Positions 31,318 through 43,518 of a DNA stretch of 51,258 nt are shown here, one piece after another (within the stretch, counting starts at the first letter, position 1; every line of letters starts with the position of its first letter). The notes below the pieces were generated by a model. The model was not told the DNA's origin, did not search any database, and was given only the letters and a program-made list of their open reading frames with translations. Location of the stretch: positions 1 to 51,258 of the IMG/VR virus record IMGVR_UViG_3300032299_001400. One strand, given 5' to 3'. Source of the stretch: a virus. Both the position numbers and the translations under genes were made by a program.

Positions 31318-31588
31318 TCTTCGCGCGGATTCTCGCGCGGTCGCTTTTTTGCAAAAGTGATCTTGTTTCGGAAGTAGGCTCCCCCCCTCCACCAACCGCC
31401 GACCATGCGGGGGATGTGAGCCTACTTCCGAGGCAAGTTGCTGACTTGTCTCCGCTGGCCTGCCAGCCGGATCGTCTCCGGCAGGATAGGTTATCTTATC
31501 GGTTCGGTTCTCCGTCCGTTTCTTGGCGGAACCGCTCGCCTTCGGCGCGCGGCTCCCCGCCATTTCCGAAACCAACACAAAAGAACCA
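31318..31588 (+). promoter_or_regulatory. Long structured leader of the first early gene
   Basis: No gene here. It holds a T6GCAAAAG element (31344-31357) and a perfect 12-bp stem CGGAAGTAGGCT/AGCCTACTTCCG (31369-31380 with 31419-31430) enclosing C- and G-runs. It also holds a GCCGGA/TCCGGC hairpin (31466-31482) and a GC-rich hairpin around 31525-31561 with a CGCC-TTC-GGCG tip. Its end is A/C-rich up to the start at 31589. Confidence 0.55.
31344..31357 (+). repeat. Early-unit boundary element CTTTTTTGCAAAAG, copy 1
   Basis: Exact 14-base repeat with a palindromic core TTTTGCAAAA. Four copies in 2.1 kb, each between an upstream early unit and the next gene. This copy lies in the leader of the gene at 31589. 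Confidence 0.7.
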
Positions 31589-32370: not shown

Positions 32371-32413
32371 GGATGGGTGAGGGTCACAACGACCCTCACC
32401 CATCCCCTTTTTT
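32371..32413 (+). terminator. Strong terminator after first early gene
   Basis: GGATGGGTGAGGGTC and GACCCTCACCCATCC form a perfect 15-bp stem with a 5-base loop, followed by CCTTTTTT. The T-run is shared with the boundary element at 32407. Confidence 0.88.
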
Positions 32414-32420
32414 GCAAAAG
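32407..32420 (+). repeat. Boundary element CTTTTTTGCAAAAG, copy 2
   Basis: Follows the terminator stem directly and lies 23 bases before the start at 32444. Between them is a five-codon frame MKFIL (32430-32447) whose TGA overlaps that start. Confidence 0.7.
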
Positions 32421-32443
32421 TCACCGACCATGAAGTTTATCCT

Positions 32444-33064: not shown

Positions 33065-33068
33065 ACCA

Positions 33069-33082
33069 CTTTTTTGCAAAAG
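33069..33082 (+). repeat. Boundary element CTTTTTTGCAAAAG, copy 3
   Basis: Lies four bases before the outer helix of the structured leader RNA that begins at 33087. Confidence 0.7.
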
Positions 33083-33086
33083 CAAT

Positions 33087-33215
33087 TTGTGCATGGGCCG
33101 CGCCACCACCTTCGGCGCGTTTGCACAAGGGCTACCCTCCGGTGGGGGGGGTAGCCCACCTCTTTCCGCCGCACGGATCGTGTTCGCCGTGCGGCCTCAA
33201 CTGACAACCGAACAC
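33087..33215 (+). ncRNA. Structured leader RNA with predicted pseudoknot, copy 1
   Basis: P1: TTGTGCA (33087-33093) with TGCACAA (33122-33128), capped by an inner CGCGCC/GGCGCG hairpin. P2 follows with no gap: GGGCTACCC (33129-33137) with GGGTAGCCC (33149-33157). P3: GCCGCACGG (33168-33176) with CCGTGCGGC (33187-33195), 10-base loop. The loop segment GTGTTCG (33180-33186) is perfectly complementary to CGAACAC at 33209-33215, 14 bases before the ATG at 33230. A copy with the same layout and different stem bases is at 42738. Could be a riboswitch-like or protein-responsive translation switch. Confidence 0.65.
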
Positions 33216-33229
33216 AGGAGAAACCAGCT

Positions 33230-33406
33230 ATGCACGCCATGATCAAAGACGGCAACCTCGTCGTCACCATCCCCGTAGGCACGCCGCGCCCCTCGGCCAG
33301 CGGCAAAACCCTCGTCGTCGCCACCAGTGGCGGCAACGTCGTCACCAACGCCCTCGTCAACGGCAAGGCCGTGACCATCGGCCTCAACGCCTACATCAAG
33401 CCCTAA
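33230..33406 (+). CDS. Small conserved-looking phage protein behind leader RNA
   Basis: 58 residues, ATG at 33230 after AGGAG. Sequence is beta-rich: DGNLVVTIPVG, SASGKTLVVATSGG, then GKAVTIGLNAYIKP. I recall similar ~60-residue phage proteins with a SGKTLVVAS core and a final GxNAYI, all of unknown function. Preceded by the pseudoknot leader and followed by a terminator, so it forms its own unit, likely with regulated translation. Confidence 0.7.
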   Translation: MHAMIKDGNLVVTIPVGTPRPSASGKTLVVATSGGNVVTNALVNGKAVTIGLNAYIKP

Positions 33407-33412
33407 CCGGAT

Positions 33413-33455
33413 TGCCGGTGGGGGGACACCACGCCCTCCACCGGCACACTTTTTT
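33413..33455 (+). terminator. Terminator after the 58-residue gene
   Basis: TGCCGGTGG pairs with CCACCGGCA across a 16-base loop, then CACTTTTTT. The T-run belongs to boundary element copy 4. Confidence 0.75.
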
Positions 33456-33462
33456 GCAAAAG
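33449..33462 (+). repeat. Boundary element CTTTTTTGCAAAAG, copy 4
   Basis: Ends three bases before the ATG at 33466, so here the element also occupies the ribosome-landing region. Confidence 0.7.
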
Positions 33463-33465
33463 CTG

Positions 33466-42737: not shown

Positions 42738-42861
42738 TGTGCTGCTGCATAGCGCACACCCTCGCGCCCTGCCGTGTGGCAGTGGCGCGGGGGTAACTCC
42801 CTGACTGTCTTTCCGCAACGCGATCGGTGTTCGTCGCGTTGCCTCCTGTCCAACCGAACAC
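42738..42861 (+). ncRNA. Structured leader RNA with predicted pseudoknot, copy 2
   Basis: P1: TGTGC (42738-42742) with GCACA (42754-42758). P2 abuts it: CCCTCGCGCC (42759-42768) with GGCGCGGGGG (42784-42793), inner CTGCC/GGCAG stem. P3: GCAACGCGA (42815-42823) with TCGCGTTGC (42834-42842), 10-base loop. Loop GTGTTCG (42827-42833) matches CGAACAC at 42855-42861. Only the loop, the AACCGAACACAG segment and the TCTTTCC before P3 are kept from copy 1; the P3 stem bases differ but still pair, which supports the structure. It ends 18 bases before the ATG at 42880. Confidence 0.65.
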
Positions 42862-42879
42862 AGAAAGCAAAGTCCAACT

Positions 42880-43518
42880 ATGGCAACTGCAACAACTCCG
42901 GCCAAAACCGGAATCAAGAAACTCAACCTCGGCTCTATCGCCCAGAAGTCGGAGAAATCGGCCAAAGCCTATCCGGTCATCCCCGACAACGAAGGCGAAG
43001 TGGCGCTCCTGGTCGATTCCATCCTCCAGCGAAGCCGCGAAGTCGAAGCCCTCGAAGGCGCGCTGAATATCGACAAGGCGCAACTGACCAGTATCGCCAA
43101 GCAGCACTACTTCGACACCAACTCCGGCAAGACCGCCATCCCCTCCAGCGTGTCGGCCCGCAGCGGTGACAAGGAAGTGCTCGTCACCCTGCAAAACCGC
43201 TACAAGGGAACCAACGACGATGCCGCCATCGCCAAGGCCATCGGTGACGATGCAGCCGCGCAATACTTCCGGCAATCCTTCGAGTTGCGGGTCAACGGCG
43301 ATGCCATTCCCGAAGATGCCGCCGATACCCTCATCGCCGAGATGCAGGAACTCTTCGCCAAGCACAATGCGAGCGAAGCCCTCACCGCCAAGGCGATCAT
43401 CAAACCGACCAAGGAGTTCCACACCGCACGGCACACCGCGTTCGACAAGGACACCAACATCGAACTCGACCGCCTCGTGCCGCTCGTGGCCATGGTCAAG
43501 ACCAAGACGAAAGAATGA
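42880..43518 (+). CDS. 212-residue early protein behind leader RNA
   Basis: ATG 42880 (MATATTPAKTGIKKLN). Disordered N-terminal ~25 residues, then SILQRSREVEALEGALNID, HYFDTNSGKTAIPSSVSARS and a YKGTNDDAAIAKAIGDDAAA segment. C-terminus has KPTKEFHTARHTAFD. I do not recognise a family; abundance is suggested by its own leader RNA. A DNA-binding or annealing role would fit its neighbours but is not shown. Confidence 0.65.
   Translation: MATATTPAKTGIKKLNLGSIAQKSEKSAKAYPVIPDNEGEVALLVDSILQRSREVEALEGALNIDKAQLTSIAKQHYFDTNSGKTAIPSSVSARSGDKEVLVTLQNRYKGTNDDAAIAKAIGDDAAAQYFRQSFELRVNGDAIPEDAADTLIAEMQELFAKHNASEALTAKAIIKPTKEFHTARHTAFDKDTNIELDRLVPLVAMVKTKTKE

Follow-up and report, generated by a model that had tools for sequence, protein, structure and literature searches.

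Paired H-type pseudoknots a short, constant distance ahead of unrelated genes in a clade of uncultured phages

Pseudoknots and hairpins in the window

The window, a 51 kb stretch of DNA from an IMG/VR virus record, carries a 58-aa gene (33230..33406) and a 212-aa gene (42880..43518), each preceded by a predicted pseudoknot, here called copy 1 and copy 2, respectively; these and all other window features given below lie on the + strand. Copy 2 reads as an H-type pseudoknot at 42815-42861. A pyrimidine tract, TCTTTCC (42808..42814), abuts the 5′ side of its first stem S1, and the CTTT of this tract stands at the same place in 11/11 copies from the window and its relatives. The strands of S1, GCAACGCGA (42815..42823) and TCGCGTTGC (42834..42842), form 9 bp around a 10-nt loop, made up of L1 (TCG, 3 nt, 42824..42826) and, at its end, GTGTTCG (42827..42833), which pairs as the 5′ strand of S2 with CGAACAC (42855..42861). 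The 12-nt loop L3 (42843..42854) differs in length and sequence among relatives. An A-rich spacer of 18 nt (42862..42879), with a weak or absent Shine-Dalgarno motif, leads to the start codon, and the complete layout is TCTTTCC-GCAACGCGA-TCG-GTGTTCG-TCGCGTTGC-CTCCTGTCCAAC-CGAACAC-AGAAAGCAAAGTCCAACT-ATG.

In copy 1 the pyrimidine tract TCTTTCC (33161..33167) is followed by the pseudoknot at 33168..33215 (S1 33168-33176/33187-33195, S2 33180-33186/33209-33215), the layout being TCTTTCC-GCCGCACGG-ATC-GTGTTCG-CCGTGCGGC-CTCAACTGACAAC-CGAACAC-AGGAGAAACCAGCT-ATG, with AGGAG at the usual Shine-Dalgarno place. The original prediction had given both copies a 9-bp stem, a 10-nt loop, GTGTTCG with CGAACAC and a gap of 12-13 nt, all of which was confirmed in the sequence, the distance from S1 to CGAACAC being 13 nt in copy 1 and 12 nt in copy 2. 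By itself GTGTTCG is not rare in the window (7 observed vs 7.8 expected), but the joint pseudoknot pattern occurs twice, against none in 100 shuffles. The two copies share only TCTTTCC and the pseudoknot, and since they align over these 57 nt at 78% identity, their descent from a common ancestor is likely. Their S1 stems are unlike at four of the nine pairs (pairs 3, 4, 6 and 9), and in all four the change on one strand is compensated on the other.

Two hairpins precede copy 1. P1 (33087..33128), formed by GTGCATGGGCCGCGCC...GGCGCGTTTGCAC with a TGGGC/TT internal loop, is conserved in six phage records, and P2 (33129..33157), a 12-bp hairpin with the loop GGTGG, shows both-sided changes among relatives: a reading of the six records by eye found four versions, in which the 12-bp hairpin is intact and four pairs have changed on both sides. 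The same order of P1, P2, stem and pseudoknot had been claimed for copy 2, and this part of the original prediction did not hold. The two hairpins then taken for P1 and P2 (42739..42794) are stable and fold well (-41.9 kcal/mol, z -4.1), but they have neither sequence nor anatomy in common with those of copy 1 and lie outside the pseudoknot module. In the closest relative (G001) they form a 66-nt block, 97% identical, at 384-449 nt upstream of the knot, from which it is detached by a tRNA-Cys (GCA) gene found with ARAGORN (L102:16703-16773, - strand) and a 90-aa ORF whose stop codon lies 11 nt short of the knot, both absent from the window; P1-P2 was therefore rejected as a part of copy 2. In three further relatives (G019-G021) a stop codon about 30 nt ahead of copy 2 leaves no room for such hairpins. 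As P1 and P2 are not common to both copies, the duplicated unit is the CTTT tract, the knot and the short spacer.

Other repeated or structured elements lie near the copy 1 leader. A further stable hairpin, CCTCGTCGAACAAGCGCGCGCGTGTTCGGAGGATTACCCGACGAGG, stands about 100 nt before P1 in G006, G019 and G020 (L100/L099/L175), and its G006 version sets GTGTTC opposite GAACAC. Within 2.1 kb the + strand has four occurrences of a 17-base element, CACTTTTTTGCAAAAGC, with 0.01 expected by chance; it is exact at 33067-33083 and 33447-33463 and has two mismatches at 31342-31358 and 32405-32421. These copies flank the start of the rightward genes and are possibly part of a promoter, operator or terminator.

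Copies and covariation in related phages

Relatives were located via both downstream proteins together with DNA patterns, and six phage records were scanned with an ungapped descriptor for a hairpin whose loop pairs to a downstream tail. The scan revealed the second copies of G019 and G021, which every sequence search had missed, and the second copy of G020 was found by reading the DNA before the homologous gene. A version of the scan that also required a suitably spaced start codon returned 16 matches in 427 kb, ten of them family members and six weaker, and none in the reversed sequences. Altogether there are 11 copies, 10 of them distinct, in six IMG/VR phage records, with two each in the window, G001, G019, G020 and G021 and one in G006, a record that ends a few hundred bases past copy 1 and in which a second copy cannot be judged; two copies are thus present in 5/5 records that reach far enough. 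When the descriptor was run on the neighbourhoods of relatives of the 58-aa protein, taken from 80 prokaryote contigs and 16 virus records, it found no member outside the clade. Broad DNA-pattern matches in IMG/VR were mostly due to chance and failed the stem test.

The geometry varies little, with an S1 of 9-10 bp, an L1 of 2-3 nt, an S2 of 6-7 bp and an L3 of 8-13 nt over all copies, all of them on the sense strand. The knot ends 14-19 nt before the start codon in every copy, and the A/C fraction of the spacer is 0.58-0.87. Apart from the CTTT tract, the conserved letters are mostly helical, and L1 and L3 vary in both sequence and length. Two copies depart from perfect pairing: copy 2 of G020 has one bulge in S1, and copy 2 of G001 has lost its last S2 pair (G to A), with two pairs to be gained at the opposite end (CGG with CCG).

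Covariation was assessed on nine aligned cores with L3 omitted. Copy 1 of G019 was excluded for its extra S1 pair, a tenth pair inserted on both strands and itself compensatory. Within this alignment 97.9% of the cells are paired, and both-sided change is seen at 10 of the 16 pairs (7/9 in S1, 3/7 in S2), although the sequences are related, so that cell counts exceed events, with at least three independent-looking versions of S1 and three of S2. When the partner strand was slid by 1-3 columns as a control, 26-43% of the cells were paired and 0-2 pairs changed on both sides. The three versions of S2 are GTGTTCG/CGAACAC, GCGTTCG/CGAACGC and GTTCTC/GAGAAC. Within each of G019, G020 and G021, copy 1 and copy 2 are unlike in S2, yet each pairs with itself; pairing between the two copies through identical S2 strands, an arrangement we had considered for the window, is thus not conserved. 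An alternative hairpin ahead of S1 (GACTT/AAGTC) was likewise discarded, since it can form in the GTAAG lineage only and not in that of the window.

Because changes among the related phages are compensated in both helices, with S2 kept in three different sequences, the predicted pseudoknot of about 45 nt is strongly supported as a structure kept by selection on pairing, in agreement with the selection on structure first proposed from the two window copies. The 57 nt of alignment could suggest that the copies arose by neutral duplication, or that they are an inverted repeat in the DNA that plays no role as RNA, but every stem difference in the window is compensated, and a DNA palindrome would not require the covariation seen in the crossing helix S2; we regard this explanation as scarcely credible.

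Target genes and a possible role

Comparison of the records shows that these phage genomes carry two predicted knots before unrelated early-region genes, always 14-19 nt ahead of the start codon. Behind copy 1 lies the first gene of a rightward block, which encodes the 58-aa protein in the window, G001 and G006 or a 66-aa protein in G019-G021. Behind copy 2, the window and G001 have the 212-aa gene, and G019-G021 have one that is DUF3150-like. The genes also occur without the structure: direct reading found no knot ahead of the 212-aa homologues in G002, G003, G004, G005, G009 and G019, the DUF3150-like gene of the window itself has none, and G020 and G021 yielded no third knot in the descriptor scan. 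The knot is thus independent of any one gene family, and it is unlikely that a single target exerts autogenous control throughout the clade. The suggestion that one of the two target products is the trans factor fares poorly for the same reason, the second target differing by lineage.

Both window targets have no assigned function. The 212-aa protein belongs to a phage family and the 58-aa protein to a widespread small-protein family (PSASGKTLVVAT...IGLNAYI) with more than 300 relatives in many bacterial and some archaeal genomes, spread through many phyla. The 58-aa product had no match in Pfam or PHROGs, and a fold search with models of the 212-aa and 58-aa proteins (mean pLDDT 74 and 84) gave no significant PDB match. 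Among the downstream proteins, Pfam and PADLOC found no toxin or defence family, and neither family nor fold matches pointed to a single-strand binding protein. Protein and DNA searches of GenBank phages found no similar leader DNA and neither target protein.

The reading that we put forward, at about an even chance of being correct, is that the knot is a portable translational operator acting in a gene 32-like manner, by which a shape-reading trans factor would set the translation of both genes. Such a factor, of phage or host origin, would recognise the knot by its shape and not by its letters and hold it folded beside the ribosome-binding region, and the folded knot would then set the level or timing of translation for both genes. 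A position 14-19 nt upstream of the ATG adjoins the stretch that an initiating ribosome is expected to cover. In the copies read, S1 is followed by L3 with no U-run that would indicate an intrinsic terminator or attenuator, and copy 2 of G001 is intercistronic, with a stop codon 11 nt ahead of the knot; together these favour a role in translation or mRNA stability over one in attenuation. Against the operator reading we count that the Shine-Dalgarno position itself lies outside the knot, that six related records amount to few independent events, that no candidate trans factor was found and the modelled targets gave no significant structural match, and that copy 2 of G020 has a bulge in S1. The presence of two copies in every record long enough is compatible with the joint control of two genes that had been predicted. 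More tentatively, and at somewhat less than even probability, the shape-read operator may have been duplicated and moved between unrelated genes, so that a single trans factor would govern two genes as a translational regulon and the operator would be a phage regulatory RNA of a new class.

The knot could instead be an mRNA stabiliser or a processing boundary that shields the downstream cistron from nucleases, for which a structure with no conserved loop letters would suffice and with which copy 2 of G001, between two cistrons and directly past a stop codon, agrees; such a role would not need the spacing from the start codon that is fixed in both lineages, and we consider it improbable. The same constant distance and the A/C-rich spacers could instead point to a ligand-free mechanical aid to initiation, a standby or positioning element that keeps a mostly Shine-Dalgarno-less start region open. 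A Shine-Dalgarno-like motif precedes 11/59 crudely called ORFs, against 13% by chance, and Shine-Dalgarno motifs are scarce in some Verrucomicrobiota and many Bacteroidota (PMC10783764), groups that may or may not include the host of this phage. However, most genes of the same phages that have no such motif, target homologues included, also have no knot, and copy 1 of the window has its AGGAG, which leaves the mechanical role unlikely, if worth keeping in view. 

Several riboswitches, such as SAM-II and preQ1, are compact H-type pseudoknots near the start region, and the knot could by this likeness be the aptamer of a small-molecule riboswitch. This is very improbable, given that L1 and L3 are conserved in neither sequence nor length, that the conserved letters lie in the helices, that the target genes are unrelated and that even permissive thresholds gave no Rfam riboswitch match. 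The variation of the unpaired loops favours shape recognition or a mechanical role over a metabolite aptamer.

Comparison with known systems

At gathering thresholds no Rfam family was reached in the whole window, and a permissive search gave matches at chance level only. SAM-II and preQ1 resemble the knot in being compact and near the initiation region, and differ from it in that the knot has neither a conserved unpaired core nor an Rfam match. ToxI, the antitoxin RNA of type III toxin-antitoxin systems, consists of small pseudoknots upstream of a gene. It has tandem repeats before a ToxN-like endoribonuclease, whereas here the knots are single and no toxin or defence match was obtained. The rpsO/S15 operator, named alongside that of gene 32, is likewise a translational operator with a pseudoknot (PMC3014915), but the targets here include no ribosomal protein and Rfam finds no such match.

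The closest anatomy is that of the T4/RB69 gene 32 operator, a pseudoknot in the mRNA leader to which the single-strand binding protein of the phage binds (PMC535899, PMC3014915). In both cases a phage mRNA leader carries an H-type pseudoknot upstream of the initiation region, followed by a mostly unstructured spacer, and the requirement is structural rather than strictly one of sequence (PMC535899, PMC3014915); the leader pseudoknot typical of gene 32 is matched here by one in which both helices covary. However, the T4 gene 32 knot lies about 67 nt upstream of its start codon as against 14-19 nt here, UUAAA repeats stand between it and the start whereas UUAAA/UAAA repeats are absent from our spacers, the T4 operator serves one gene autogenously whereas two knots precede unrelated genes here, and the gene 32 target is a single-strand binding protein, none of which was recognised among our targets. 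Because of these differences in spacing, repeats and targets, the knot resembles the gene 32 operator in anatomy without being a member of its family. If the operator reading is true, operators can serve as portable modules, as exemplified by this clade of uncultured phages, in whose genomes two covarying knots stand before differing genes, and the clade would offer naturally occurring compensatory variants with which to test how an RNA shape is read by a protein or by the ribosome.
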